This document shows, piece after piece, positions 3,997 to 8,081 of a stretch of DNA of 64,000 nt. Source of the stretch: Pyrinomonadaceae bacterium (GTDB lineage: Bacteria; Acidobacteriota; Blastocatellia; Pyrinomonadales; Pyrinomonadaceae); NCBI GenBank assembly GCA_021228405.1, contig JAJQRF010000008.1, forward strand, positions 62,001 through 126,000, in the 5' to 3' direction. Position numbers and translations under genes: made by a program. The stretch's first letter is position 1, and every line of letters starts with the position of its first letter. Below the pieces are notes generated by a model that was not told the DNA's origin, made no database searches, and saw only the letters and a list, made by a program, of their open reading frames with translations.

Positions 3997-4440
3997 ATGT
4001 TAGAAACCGAAGGATTACTCAGCATCAAACAAGCGAGCGAATGGGCAACCGATCATATCGGTAAAACCGTCACGCCCTCGAGTATTACCTATCTCATAAA
4101 TTACGGGAGAATTTTAAAGGTCGGAGAAAACGGCTCGACCTTGATTCCCGTTCAGGAATTAATTGATTATTACGAAAATTATCAACGCGAAGCCGTTTAT
4201 AAAAAAAAGCTCGGCAAAGATTTGAACTGGGCTTTGTCATTCGACCAATACAAAGAATCCGAAACCACCAAACACGTCCATCGCCTTCACCCGTATAAAG
4301 GCAAATTCATTCCGCAACTGGTCGAATATTTTTTAGATTCGCACACGGACAAATTTAAAACCGAAACCTTTTTCAAAGCAGACGGCATCGTTCTCGACCC
4401 TTTTTGCGGAAGCGGCTCGACACTTGTGCGGGGCAATTAA
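3997..4440 (+). pseudogene. 5' fragment of a DNA methyltransferase gene (HTH-fused, beta-type)
   Basis: The 147-aa product keeps an N-terminal helix-turn-helix/DNA-binding part (about residues 1-55, LSIKQASEWA...) and the start of an amino-methyltransferase domain. The conserved HRLHPYKGKFIPQLVEYF segment and SAM motif I DPFCGSGSTL (about 134-143) are present, but the frame stops four residues later. The family is normally about 400 aa or more, so motif IV and the target-recognition region are missing. Base composition matches the flanking chromosome rather than the AT-rich genes that follow. The TdeIII-like endonuclease at 6933 would be a natural partner for such a methylase. I infer a methylase cut off by arrival of the BglI-like cassette. 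A single TAA separates it from the next small ORF in the same frame. Confidence 0.75.
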
Positions 4441-4443
4441 ATT

Positions 4444-4635
4444 ATGGAACAGATAAACACAGATGATTTAATCTATTGGATTGATAAAGATTTCGTCCAG
4501 GAAAAAGCGCAAGAAAGAATCGGCAGAAATTTGAACGACGAAGAAATTTCAAAACTGACTAAAATGGTTGAGTTTGGTTTGTGGGAAGCCGATAACACCT
4601 CCGTCAAAACTGCAATTGACGAAGTTAGCCAATAA
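4444..4635 (+). CDS. Small hypothetical protein, 63 aa
   Basis: An acidic 63-residue protein with no recognised domain, in the same frame as the truncated methylase and separated from it by TAA ATT. Its first codons are written over a 17-bp word (4449-4465) identical to part of the WP1 repeat at 26361, so the beginning of the ORF may be recent. The body (YWIDKDFVQEKAQERIGR, then DEEIS) looks like a genuine small helical protein, and it may be an unrelated gene carried with the incoming R-M cassette. Expression and function are unknown. Confidence 0.45.
   Translation: MEQINTDDLIYWIDKDFVQEKAQERIGRNLNDEEISKLTKMVEFGLWEADNTSVKTAIDEVSQ
4449..4465. repeat. WP1 repeat word at the methylase breakpoint
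   Basis: ACAGATAAACACAGATG is identical to bases inside the left arm of the WP1 element at 26361-26390. It lies 9 bp after the premature stop of the truncated methylase. Confidence 0.6.
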
Positions 4636-4694
4636 TCAAACTATAATTTTATCTCTACCCATAAGTTGCTCAAATCAGCAATCAAACAAGTTTT

Positions 4695-4720
4695 GCTATC
4701 TTTAGTCTGTAGAACTTTAG
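4695..4720 (+). promoter_or_regulatory. Candidate controller (C-box) region
   Basis: GCTATCTTTAG at 4695-4705 differs by one base from GCTATCTATAG in the palindrome upstream of the methyltransferase (6861-6871). CTTTAG is also directly repeated at 4700 and 4715. The position 25-50 bp before the controller gene is where autoregulatory C-boxes are found. This is inference only. Confidence 0.4.
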
Positions 4721-4744
4721 CGTTCATAATTTATATCTTATTAT

Positions 4745-4978
4745 GTGTTCAATAAACCCTTAGCAGAAAATATAGGCGCGTTAATTCGTGAACTTCGAGT
4801 AGCAGCGGGAAGGTCACAAGAAGCATTTGCAGATCAGTGTGGCATACATCGCACTTATATCGGTTCAATTGAAAGGGGCGAAAAAGCCATTACAATTGAA
4901 ACAGCTCAAAAAATAGTCGAATCACTTAATATTTCCCTGGCACAATTCTTCCAAAAACTTGAGGAGAAATCTAAATAA
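4745..4978 (+). CDS. XRE-type controller protein of the BglI-like R-M system
   Basis: A 77-aa single-domain helix-turn-helix protein (HTH about residues 12-66, with the recognition segment around CGIHRTYIGSIERGE). This is the size and type of the C proteins that time expression of type II endonucleases. I use GTG 4745; no upstream ATG is in frame. Its stop overlaps the endonuclease start (TAATG), which is the usual C-R arrangement and implies translational coupling. It should bind near 4695-4720 to activate and later repress its own operon, delaying endonuclease until host DNA is methylated. Codon use is AT-rich, like the rest of the cassette and unlike the flanking chromosome. Confidence 0.85.
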   Translation: MFNKPLAENIGALIRELRVAAGRSQEAFADQCGIHRTYIGSIERGEKAITIETAQKIVESLNISLAQFFQKLEEKSK

Positions 4979-5841
4979 TGCTCACCGAAGCCGAATATTT
5001 CTCCATTAGATCAAAACTAATCAGCAACGAATTAGCTCATATTGTCGCAGTTGAACGGCAATATATGGATTTTCTTGTTGATGTAACTCTTCGCGCCGCT
5101 GACAGTATTAATACTGATTTCTGCCAAGTAACGGAACTAATGCCGTTTTGGGTAAACTATCCACCTAGACAAAGAGGACGTGCGCCTTCGGGTGCTTCAA
5201 TTCCGTGGAGCGAAGTTGGTGAGAAAGCAATTAGCCAGAATTTAGTTCGCGCCCTTACTTTGGAAGATACGTCAATTACTTTTCCAGGATTACCATTAGG
5301 TGGTGATATTCGATTTGCAACTAATGATGCGTTAATTCATTTCGATGTGAAATTGACGGGACCCAATGATAGAGCAGATGAAATTGTAGCAAGCCCACAT
5401 CAAATTTCGGGCGACGGCGTGATATGGGAAAATAATGGAGTCGTAAACTCGCCCGCAAATGTGACTGGAGCAAGGGCAAGTATGATTTTCCAACCAGAAC
5501 TTCCGCCTTTTTATGTATTAAACAAGCGTCCTTTGGTTTGTCTTACCTATTTTCTTAAAGCCGTTTATGAAGTTAAAAGCATCGGAGATCAACCGTTAAA
5601 ATATCTTGAAGTAGCTTGTGTTCCTAATGGGTTGCTGATGTTTGATGAGCCGCAACTTGCCAGAACACCAGGATTGCTAATTCCCGGAAAAGATGAACAA
5701 ACCTATTTGAAAAAGCGAACCCGAGTTAGATTAGAGCCATTGGCAAATTTACACGATTGGCGTTGCATTCAAATTGTGAAAGTTGACGATAAATGGATAA
5801 CACAAGCTAGAAATCAAGGAGAACAGTTAAAACTTATCTAA
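4978..5841 (+). CDS. BglI-like type II restriction endonuclease
   Basis: This 287-aa protein matches BglI as I know it: FWVNYPPRQRG (57-67), IPWSEVGEKA (75-84), the catalytic core FDVKLTGPNDRA (122-133) and SPHQISGDG (139-147), and the late VPNGLLMF block. Asp110, Asp123 and Lys125 align with the BglI metal-binding residues, with a shorter loop between the first two. BglI cuts GCC(N5)GGC leaving 3' overhangs; the same or a related site is expected. It is co-transcribed with the C gene and converges on the methyltransferase with a 15-bp 3' overlap. Complete and apparently active; AT-rich, hence probably acquired. Confidence 0.9.
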   Translation: MLTEAEYFSIRSKLISNELAHIVAVERQYMDFLVDVTLRAADSINTDFCQVTELMPFWVNYPPRQRGRAPSGASIPWSEVGEKAISQNLVRALTLEDTSITFPGLPLGGDIRFATNDALIHFDVKLTGPNDRADEIVASPHQISGDGVIWENNGVVNSPANVTGARASMIFQPELPPFYVLNKRPLVCLTYFLKAVYEVKSIGDQPLKYLEVACVPNGLLMFDEPQLARTPGLLIPGKDEQTYLKKRTRVRLEPLANLHDWRCIQIVKVDDKWITQARNQGEQLKLI

Positions 5842-6840
5842 TAAAGTCAATTGATTTCCACTTGAAGCGTATTCTGATTTGTAAGTTTTCTGTCCGTTCG
5901 TAGCCTGCCATTTTTGTTTCTCTTTTTCGCACGACTCACGCGCTAAAGAAACATATCCCGATTGCTTTTCGATGCCAATATAATTTCTGCCTTCTCTGAT
6001 TGCGGCAACTGCCGTTGTGCCGCTTCCCATAAAACAATCTAAAACGGTATCGTCAGGAAAAGTTAATAACTTAATGACTCGTCGCGGCAACTCAAGCGGA
6101 AATTTTGCTTCATGGTCATTGTTGGCTCTAACGGAAGGAATTTGCCATACTGCCCGCGAACCCCAAGAAGCCCATTCCTCGGAGGTAAGTTTGCTTCTGT
6201 CTACAATTGTTGTCCCGGGTTTCCAAAAAAAATAAAGATATTCAAATTCATCAACAGCGCGATATGAAAGCGTTGCCCATTTAGAATTCTCCCAAGCCGG
6301 GTCTTTCATCCATATTCTGCGATCATACAGATATAAATTAGCCGCTGTCGCCGCATCTTGAATAATGTTTCCTACTAAATGAACTCGCGTTTGTGTATTA
6401 TATTTTCCGCCTCGTATATTATTTCCATTCAAGCGACGGTCAATAGTTTGCTCACTACAGCCGAGCAAAGCCGCAAGTTGATTTCTGTTGTAGTTTGGAT
6501 TTGCCGCCTTAGCTTCTAAAACTTCCTCGCGTGTGATGCTAACTTTATGACGACTCACATTCATTGCTTGAAAACGTGGTATTGATTCATCTGGAAAGCA
6601 TAGAATGTCTGCAATGTTTATAACGAGGAAACCGCCTGGTTTCAATATTGAGTAATGTAAGCCTATAACATCTTTCAAAAGACCAATCCATTCATCATAA
6701 GAAATTCCTTTTTCGTATTCTTTTCCGAGATGATAAGGCGGAGACCAAACACTACAGCTTATAGAGTCAGACTCTACTTGAGGCAAAAGCTCACGAGCAT
6801 CGCCTTGATAAATTTCGTTAATATTTAAACTCGAAGTCAT
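5827..6840 (-). CDS. N4-cytosine-type DNA methyltransferase of the BglI-like system
   Basis: A 337-aa beta-class amino-methyltransferase. Catalytic motif IV is SPPY (33-36), typical of N4-cytosine enzymes, and the SAM-binding motif DCFMGSGTT lies near 265-275, the circularly permuted order of this class. Between them, about residues 100-140 hold an inserted helix-turn-helix-like segment (YNRNQLAALLGCSEQTIDRR), which is seen in a subfamily of site-specific methylases. It should protect host DNA against the convergent endonuclease. It is transcribed from its own promoter (TTGCAC 6902-6897, 17 bp, TATGCT 6879-6874 on the minus strand), with a perfect 32-bp palindrome covering the -10 and the start region. 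Confidence 0.88.
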   Translation of the reverse strand: MTSSLNINEIYQGDARELLPQVESDSISCSVWSPPYHLGKEYEKGISYDEWIGLLKDVIGLHYSILKPGGFLVINIADILCFPDESIPRFQAMNVSRHKVSITREEVLEAKAANPNYNRNQLAALLGCSEQTIDRRLNGNNIRGGKYNTQTRVHLVGNIIQDAATAANLYLYDRRIWMKDPAWENSKWATLSYRAVDEFEYLYFFWKPGTTIVDRSKLTSEEWASWGSRAVWQIPSVRANNDHEAKFPLELPRRVIKLLTFPDDTVLDCFMGSGTTAVAAIREGRNYIGIEKQSGYVSLARESCEKEKQKWQATNGQKTYKSEYASSGNQLTLLDKF

Positions 6841-6852
6841 TTGATATTAGTT

Positions 6853-6884
6853 AAATGTATGCTATCTATAGATAGCATACATTT
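6853..6884. promoter_or_regulatory. Perfect 32-bp palindrome, likely operator
   Basis: A loopless palindrome: the half-site AAATGTATGCTATCTA is followed directly by its exact reverse complement. It lies 12 bp upstream of the methyltransferase ATG and covers that gene's predicted -10. It shares GCTATCTWTAG with the region upstream of the controller gene, so the C protein or the methylase's own HTH could bind here. Confidence 0.7.
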
Positions 6885-6932
6885 TTTGAGAAAAAGGTGC
6901 AAAAATTCATCTAAAGATTCTATATTTTGCTA

Positions 6933-7667
6933 ATGGCTTTGAGAAATGAGTTTCTCAAATACAATCCCGAACCTGCCGTGATGCCTTTTCATACGCGCCT
7001 TCTTGGGAAAGACCGTTTGGCGTTGTATGCGTTTATTCATTCGCTGAATACGAATTTCGGGACGAGCGTTTTTGAGCCGGTGGCGGTTGCGCTGGCGCGG
7101 TCGAATTTTGCGGACGCGAAGGCGCAGATCAAGGCGGGTGAGTATATCAGCGAAGAAGCGTTTCGGGTGATTCAGGAGATAATGACCGATTTGACCGCCG
7201 CGAACGGTTTGCCCGATAAGCCGACCGAGATCGAACGCATCAGAGTGGTTTGCCGGACGGGGAAAATGATAAAGGTCAAACCGACCAAGATCGATGTTTT
7301 CGTCGAAGCGAAAGACGGCGAGCTTTATCTTTTCGACATCAAGACCGCCAAACCGAACGCGGGCGGATTCAAGGAATTCAAACGAACGCTTTTAGAATGG
7401 GTTGCCGCCGTTTTAGCCGAAACGCCTCAGGTAAAAGTTAATTCGCTCATCACAATTCCCTACAATCCTTACGCGCCCGCACCTTACAACCGTTGGACAA
7501 TGCGCGGAATGTTGGATTTGCCGAACGAATTAAAGGTCGCTGAAGAATTTTGGGATTTTCTCGGCGGTGAAGGTGCTTATAATGATCTGCTCGACATTTT
7601 CGAGCGCGTCGGCATCGAACTGCGGTCGGAGATTGACGAATATTTTGCGAAATTCAATCTCGGATAA
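6933..7667 (+). CDS. TdeIII-family type II restriction endonuclease, possibly 5'-truncated
   Basis: This 244-aa protein carries the hallmarks of the TdeIII/MjaII endonuclease family, whose TdeIII member cleaves GGNCC: MPFHTRLLGKDRLALYAFIH near the N-terminus, LNTNFGTSVFEPVA, and the PD-(D/E)XK-type core KIDVFVEAKDGELYLFDIK then TAKPNAGGFKEFKRTLLEW. I start at ATG 6933 because a TAA at 6912 blocks extension in frame. There is no ribosome-binding site, and the family usually has about 15-20 more N-terminal residues. With its likely methylase cut at 4440, this gene looks like the other half of a disrupted system. G+C matches the chromosome. It may be inactive or leaderless. Confidence 0.8.
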   Translation: MALRNEFLKYNPEPAVMPFHTRLLGKDRLALYAFIHSLNTNFGTSVFEPVAVALARSNFADAKAQIKAGEYISEEAFRVIQEIMTDLTAANGLPDKPTEIERIRVVCRTGKMIKVKPTKIDVFVEAKDGELYLFDIKTAKPNAGGFKEFKRTLLEWVAAVLAETPQVKVNSLITIPYNPYAPAPYNRWTMRGMLDLPNELKVAEEFWDFLGGEGAYNDLLDIFERVGIELRSEIDEYFAKFNLG

Positions 7668-7829: not shown

Positions 7830-8081
7830 GTTGAGCGGTTGACTTTGATACCGCCGTCGATGACAAGGGCGCGGTTTCCGTTGACAATCGCACCGCCGTG
7901 AATGACTGTGACACCGCACCGGTTGACTATAGCACCGCCGCAAATGACAATCGGACGCGCACCGTTGACATTGACACCGCCAAGAATGACTACGGCTCCG
8001 CACCGATTGACAATGACACCGCACAAATTGACCGGAGCACCGCACACATTGACAATGACACCGCACAAATTGACAACGATG
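7830..8081. repeat. Exact 21-bp tandem array A (12 units)
   Basis: TGAC recurs at 7840, 7861, 7882, 7903, 7924, 7945, 7966, 7987, 8008, 8029, 8050 and 8071, every 21 bp without a slip. Units diverge elsewhere but mostly follow CCGCAC-N-RTTGACAATGACA. Because 21 is a multiple of three and units lack stops, several frames stay open, giving heptapeptide-periodic translations on both strands. None has a convincing start, so I treat it as non-coding. Confidence 0.9.

Follow-up and report, generated by a model that had tools for sequence, protein, structure and literature searches.

A complete BglI-type restriction–modification unit within a broken TdeIII-type operon of a Pyrinomonadaceae bacterium

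We analyzed a 64,000-nucleotide (nt) stretch of DNA from a Pyrinomonadaceae bacterium (assembly GCA_021228405.1, contig JAJQRF010000008.1, positions 62,001 to 126,000; hereafter the window), in which one restriction–modification (R-M) system lies inside another. The genome, G000, comprises 5.7 Mb in 20 contigs and is 96.5% complete, with the locus deep within a long contig. The gene order is a fragment of a DNA methylase (M1), a 63-amino-acid (aa) open reading frame (ORF63), a controller (C), a BglI-type endonuclease (BglI), a second methylase (M2) and a TdeIII-family endonuclease (R); all genes are on the forward strand except M2. C, BglI and M2 occupy 4745–6840, between the M1 fragment and R. 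Hence a complete BglI-type R-M unit sits within a broken TdeIII-type operon. The original prediction, made from the sequence alone, had described such a cassette, and its order, strands and coordinates were correct by ORF and Pfam analysis. For comparison, we used R loci from a genome collection (the best 80 of 93 found by R), a sample of 162 genomes of the class and a sample of 396 genomes of the phylum, the class sample including G000.

The inner genes have the makeup of a C-controlled R-M unit. C (4745–4978, forward) encodes a 77-aa HTH_3 controller (Pfam E 4e-17) and lies directly before the endonuclease gene (4978–5841, forward). The 287-aa product of the latter matches essentially the whole Endonuc_BglI profile (PF14562, positions 5–285 of 286, E 4e-71) and also matches BglI itself (1DMU; E 2.2e-38 over residues 30–255). 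The D-x-K motifs of the two proteins align, FDVK in the window and VDIK in 1DMU, and we take these residues to be catalytic. The adjoining M2 (5827–6840, reverse) is the N4/N6 DNA methylase of the unit (PF01555, E 2.5e-40), with SPPY and motif I visible. It lies tail to tail with BglI, and the same convergent BglI/M2 pair is found in another genome of the phylum, G447, where BglI is 51% identical. A putative C-protein operator, TGCTATCTTTAG, is located upstream of C at 4694–4705 on the forward strand. The pattern TGCTATCTNTAG occurs three times in the 64 kb, against 0.02 expected, and every copy precedes C or M2. Upstream of M2, near the right edge of the cassette, a perfect 32-bp palindrome (6853–6884) contains two overlapping putative operator copies on opposite strands. 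In locus L126, C is 56% identical to that of the window and stands beside a BglI fragment; a copy of the operator with one mismatch lies upstream of it, with 1.1 chance matches expected in the 12 kb of that locus.

Base composition and codon use set the unit apart from its surroundings. G+C content at third codon positions (GC3) is 0.27–0.33 for C, BglI and M2, compared to 0.50 for the M1 fragment, 0.59 for R and 0.63–0.68 for the host genes secA and adh. Codon use likewise separates C, BglI and M2 from M1, ORF63 and R. The predicted split between AT-rich inner genes and host-like outer pieces held, except that the M1 fragment, with an overall G+C content of 0.43, is intermediate rather than host-like. 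A search for repeats at the cassette ends gave no pair marking a target duplication. Nor was a mobile carrier found: BglI had two distant matches in plasmids and none in viral contigs, and ORF63 had no match in plasmids. The M1 fragment gave one partial plasmid match. Scans for sigma-70 promoters and terminators returned match numbers similar to or below those of shuffled sequences.

ORF63 (4444–4635, forward), which the original prediction did not include, separates the M1 fragment from the cassette. It is a probable divergent member of a family of ~65-aa ORFs found at 13 distinct M1/R loci. Members occur in the M1–R gap (seven loci), downstream of R (five loci, from immediately behind R to 2.7 kb off) and just upstream of M1 (one locus). 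In a search of 8058 ORFs with the family's profile, ORF63 was the next-best match (E 0.0082), and the next non-member scored E 2.7. Its codon use is closer to that of M1 and R than to that of C, BglI and M2. From the profile match and codon use, ORF63 probably belongs to the old operon, such that the cassette proper would be C–BglI–M2, running from after 4635 to about 6884.

The M1 fragment (3997–4440, forward) corresponds to the first ~147 of ~528 codons of an N4/N6 DNA methylase (Pfam N6_N4_Mtase, E 1.9e-7). By alignment to relatives it covers residues 1–147 of the ~528-aa methylase found upstream of TdeIII homologs elsewhere, which bears out its description as the first third of such an enzyme. 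The proposed fusion to a helix-turn-helix (HTH) domain was not borne out by Pfam, which reports no HTH in the fragment. Motif I (DPFCGSGST) is retained and the remainder is gone, including the catalytic SPPY. By eye, homology extends to codon ~148, at which the window has TAA in place of the family's GAA. A search of the host genome for the lost ~380 C-terminal residues gave only short stretches of other methylases. The TdeIII-type system therefore has 147 of the ~528 aa of its cognate methylase.

R (6927–7667, forward) begins at TTG 6927 or ATG 6936, and its ORF is otherwise intact. It matches RE_TdeIII (PF09520) over positions 15–242 of 242 (E 6.6e-88). In nearly all intact relatives compared, the start codon lies 13–14 codons before window position 6927, and homology in the window starts at 6927–6936; R thus lacks its native start and 13–16 codons, depending on the start used, close to the 15–20 residues originally estimated. 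As also predicted, no ribosome-binding site was seen by eye. In an AlphaFold model of a relative, L018 (mean predicted local distance difference test score, 86), the lost part corresponds to residues 1–14 or 1–16, most of the first helix (residues 5–25). The rest of the protein is well preserved: of 104 columns conserved to 95% or more across 69 relatives, R keeps 101. Among the retained residues are D123, D137 and K139, predicted to be catalytic from the PD-(D/E)XK pattern. A search for solved structures with the R sequence gave nothing convincing (one match, E 0.4). The closest fold in the PDB for an R relative is EcoO109I (E 6.5e-5), whose specificity we take to be RGGNCCY, with the core GGNCC.

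Other R genes show alterations of various kinds. In L119, L120 and L124, R is disrupted by a frameshift or internal deletion, and a full M1 lies alongside in L119 and L124. Two loci of other phyla have altered beginnings: in L055 (1117–1923) R is read in frame from a start like that of the small ORF, and in L068 (4995–5696) it starts near codon 14. In L003, L021, L074 and L112, two tandem, diverged TdeIII-family proteins stand behind M1, possibly as a two-subunit endonuclease.

Unsplit loci in other genomes were looked for, as suggested with the original prediction. A full-length M1 match lies upstream of R, on the same strand, in 62 of the 80 R loci, and such unsplit operons occur in many phyla. 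Among the remaining 18, there is no space for a full M1 in 13, which begin within M1 or too close to R. In the five with room, M1 is altered or missing: it is split by a frameshift (L052), present as a C-terminal piece only (L062), marked by internal losses (L064), absent within 5 kb (L068) or present as an N-terminal piece only (L079). The distance from M1 to the expected R start in the 62 operons is at most 30 nt in 37, 31–400 nt in seven and >400 nt in 18. Contents of the gaps examined include AIPR proteins (AbiU-like in the class genome G057), an AriA-like AAA_15 ATPase, a PDC-M38A-like protein with an Mrr nuclease, second TdeIII proteins, P-loop ATPases and unknowns. The M1–R junction is a recurrent cargo slot in the TdeIII-type family.

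We then compared M1 within the class, counting matches with E below 1e-50. Twelve of the 162 genomes have one: seven carry most or all of M1 (one ended by the contig end), and five, G000 among them, carry the N-terminal part only. In the other four (G054, G089, G065 and G090), the slot holds a ~310-aa nuclease-like protein, unlike the cargo of G000. M1 breaks off at codons 148–150 in G054 and G089, about as in the window, and near codons 165 and 124 in G065 and G090, respectively. Hence, behind about the same M1 break, the cargo is the BglI unit in one case and the nuclease-like protein in two. The break need not stem from BglI, since four class relatives combine a short M1 with other cargo, two of them at about the same codon; this suggests that it is older than, or independent of, the BglI unit. 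In G054 and G089, R also lacks its start, being broken near codon 0, although the 5' remnant in G089 is a weak match seen by eye; R of G054 has apparently lost another segment, from between two Y-N-P coding stretches that resemble each other. At all five class loci where M1 is truncated, R has lost its 5' end, is largely deleted or was not found, which fits a joint loss of the two activities. In the M1 tree, the fragment of the window has that of G054 as its sister (99/93). Between them the ratio of nonsynonymous to synonymous substitution rates (dN/dS) is 0.11 at dS 0.89, and neither has an internal stop.

The nuclease-like protein was also seen in other settings. At 10 of 20 loci with relatives of this ~310-aa protein (L118, L122, L123, L161, L193–L196, L218 and L226), a methylase fragment without an in-frame DPPY or SPPY, as judged by pattern and eye, lies nearby. 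One of the 10 has an intact-looking methylase 1.3 kb off; in nine, none was found in the stretch examined. The protein is possibly a modification-dependent nuclease that replaces methylases. On a Zixibacteriota contig (L079, 3949–5033), an N-terminal piece of M1 precedes a small ORF and, with it, a protein that has an EVE domain and a similar nuclease-like end.

Restriction sites were counted in samples of 80 to 400 kb from other class genomes and in a 464-kb sample of G000, made up of the window and 20 stretches of 20 kb and equal to 8% of the genome. In G000, GCCN5GGC occurs three times versus 79 expected, a purge of about 25-fold (~96% of sites lost), and is the lowest of the 64 N5 palindromes. 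Neighboring spacings are not reduced, with 115 GCCN4GGC and 120 GCCN6GGC, each versus 79 expected. None of the eight other class genomes sampled has a full BglI match, and none is as depleted as G000 (observed/expected: G054, 53/78; G057, 12/16; G031, 6/5; G090, 45/29; G156, 14/27; G091, 44/27; G148, 54/70; G155, 42/52). The loss is thus specific to genome and spacing. The low ratio in the host (0.04, at N5 only) argues for cutting at GCCNNNNNGGC, with the undepleted genome of the G447 pair as a counterexample, and we take it as evidence of a long-resident active enzyme of BglI specificity. Because the purge suggests long residence, AT-rich codons do not date the cassette, contrary to the notion that these genes arrived recently.

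Many other palindromes are scarce in the 464 kb of G000, an extreme record of restriction. Twenty of 64 six-base palindromes have observed/expected ratios below 0.1 (for example, TTCGAA 4/765, GACGTC 0/144 and GGCGCC 1/144), and the ratios of CATG and GTAC are 0.06 and 0.08. GGCC is absent in G000 (0/1152 expected), as it is in the G057 and G031 samples of 80 kb; G054 has almost none (2/1110) and G156 few, but it is not low in G090 or G091. GGCC was considered as the site of R and dropped, because GGNCC agrees with the fold match to EcoO109I and several M1–R loci from other phyla have no shortage of GGCC (L025, 83/62.9).

For GGNCC, G000 has 127 sites versus 922 expected per 464 kb. The observed/expected ratio is 0.41 over the 80 R loci, which span many phyla, versus 0.63 in 187 kb of control loci, all from this class; GGACC and GGTCC are no less frequent in G057, which has an intact M1–R pair, than in G091, which lacks R. 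This gives modest support to GGNCC as the specificity of R. If R had the presumed family specificity and were active in the absence of M1, the cell would die, and an active, unprotected R is not credible given the ~127 sites that persist. The lethality problem raised in the original prediction is therefore real, yet it is mild, as R has lost its native start and most of its first helix and, by eye, shows no ribosome-binding site. R is probably silent or dead. Alternatively, another host methylase may protect its sites: besides M1 and M2, the host carries eleven loci for N4/N6 methylases and about four 5-methylcytosine (m5C) loci, some of them broken.

We favor, with a probability of about 0.7, the reading that a TdeIII-type operon (M1, small ORF, R) survives here as a relic, its cargo slot now holding a complete C-controlled BglI-type R-M unit. 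M1 would probably have been inactivated by a deletion of its 3' part, a change shared by the sister copy in G054. The slot would then have held or swapped cargo, and the junction with R would have removed R's start and first codons. With methylase and endonuclease lost together, no unprotected enzyme would have threatened the cell. The BglI unit would be the working part: C would bind the TGCTATCTNTAG sites that precede C and M2, BglI would cut at its site and M2 would protect that site, with residence long enough to account for the lost host sites. Several observations weigh against this reading. Beyond the M1 break, the window and G054 sequences show no significant similarity (174 of 2000 shuffles score at least as high), so the case for a shared break is one of codon position and tree. 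The M1 tree mixes intact and truncated copies, mostly at weak forks, and the truncation label requires four changes; a single origin of the truncations may nonetheless be possible. Membership of ORF63 in its family is marginal. G447, the other of the two compared genomes with a BglI/M2 pair, shows no depletion of GCCN5GGC (133/68 in 76 kb). Depletion is therefore not automatic with a BglI unit; either the G447 system is newly arrived, or it has another specificity, or the depletion in G000 has another cause. Finally, the undecayed R is also compatible with an enzyme in use, and the further host methylases might protect its sites.

That last possibility, an R still active and useful with its sites protected by another host methylase or by M2, draws on the intact ORF and putative catalytic residues, the additional methylases and the scarcity of GGNCC. 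We consider it unlikely, given the missing start, the loss of most of the first helix and the damage to R in every class locus with a truncated M1. The original prediction held instead that the 3' part of M1 and the 5' end of R were both replaced by the BglI cassette, which would make the two breaks the result of a single recent event. Such an event would explain why the cassette is flanked by both breaks, why the inner genes are foreign in codon use and why the lost part of M1 has no copy elsewhere in the host genome search. It is improbable in view of the M1 break at about the same codon, with an R break and other cargo, in G054 and G089, the probable old-operon ORF that separates M1 from the cassette and the long residence suggested by the site purge. 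Overall, the earlier interpretation is partly supported.

Two further readings concern the M1 piece itself. Instead of debris, it could be a functional protein that has been kept, a regulator of the slot that binds SAM or DNA. The low dN/dS and the absence of internal stops in two copies broken at about the same point are as expected for such a protein; we nevertheless find it doubtful, as the catalytic half is missing, the window copy deviates at five conserved columns up to residue 145, including motif I, and the constraint may date from before the truncation, should the two breaks have arisen independently. It is similarly speculative that the M1 5' and R 3' pieces are bookends of a defense-exchange locus, with the R-M operon now serving other restriction systems as a docking site and perhaps regulating them. 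This idea draws on the M1 break kept at about the same codon in the window, G054 and G089, on the constraint between the first two and on the differing cargo, the nuclease-like protein also standing behind the other M1 breaks of G065 and G090. An assembly chimera might be suspected because a BglI unit inside M1/R was seen in no other genome and any BglI match occurs in only four of the 396 phylum genomes, including G000 with its single match. This is very improbable: the assembly has just 20 contigs and the locus lies far from the ends of a long one, the M1 and R pieces are in native order and strand, M1 breaks at about the same codon in two other genomes and the BglI site signature extends across the sampled genome.

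Defense genes embedded in R-M loci have been described before ('guilt by embedding'). DarTG2 is reported to lie between hsdS and hsdR, at a site named a potential recombination hotspot (PMC12255303). That case likewise places a defense module between R-M genes; here the host operon is Type II and broken, and the slot is the M–R junction. Restriction genes are likewise inserted into R-M gene complexes in the case of mcrBC (PMC2614495), reported as a methyl-specific nuclease in Type I complexes, whereas here the insert is a complete Type II unit. An R-M gene is also the insertion target in Helicobacter pylori, where prophage-like and other islands are reported to sit in R-M or modification genes (PMC3120642); in the window the insert is another R-M unit. 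The BglI R-M system shares the PF14562 endonuclease, and the GCCNNNNNGGC signature is present in G000; the window enzyme is only moderately similar to 1DMU and sits in a relic operon. Word searches of an open-access library gave no paper with the word TdeIII and, among the papers listed, no description of a recurring cargo slot at the M–R junction of a Type II family and no R-M unit in another's relic with a genome-wide site signature.

On the favored reading, the relic operon with its BglI unit would show in nature how a Type II R-M system can be displaced by another with no unprotected endonuclease left. The M–R junction of one R-M family is a repeated docking place for antiviral genes. Loss of an exact site with adjacent spacings intact could serve as a computational read-out of specificity and residence time, and could be tried on uncharacterized restriction enzymes. 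The purge also cautions against taking AT-rich R-M genes as recent arrivals.

Beyond the operon, between R and secA (window 7840–8080), a short imperfect tandem-like run of GACACCGC-type units was seen by eye.

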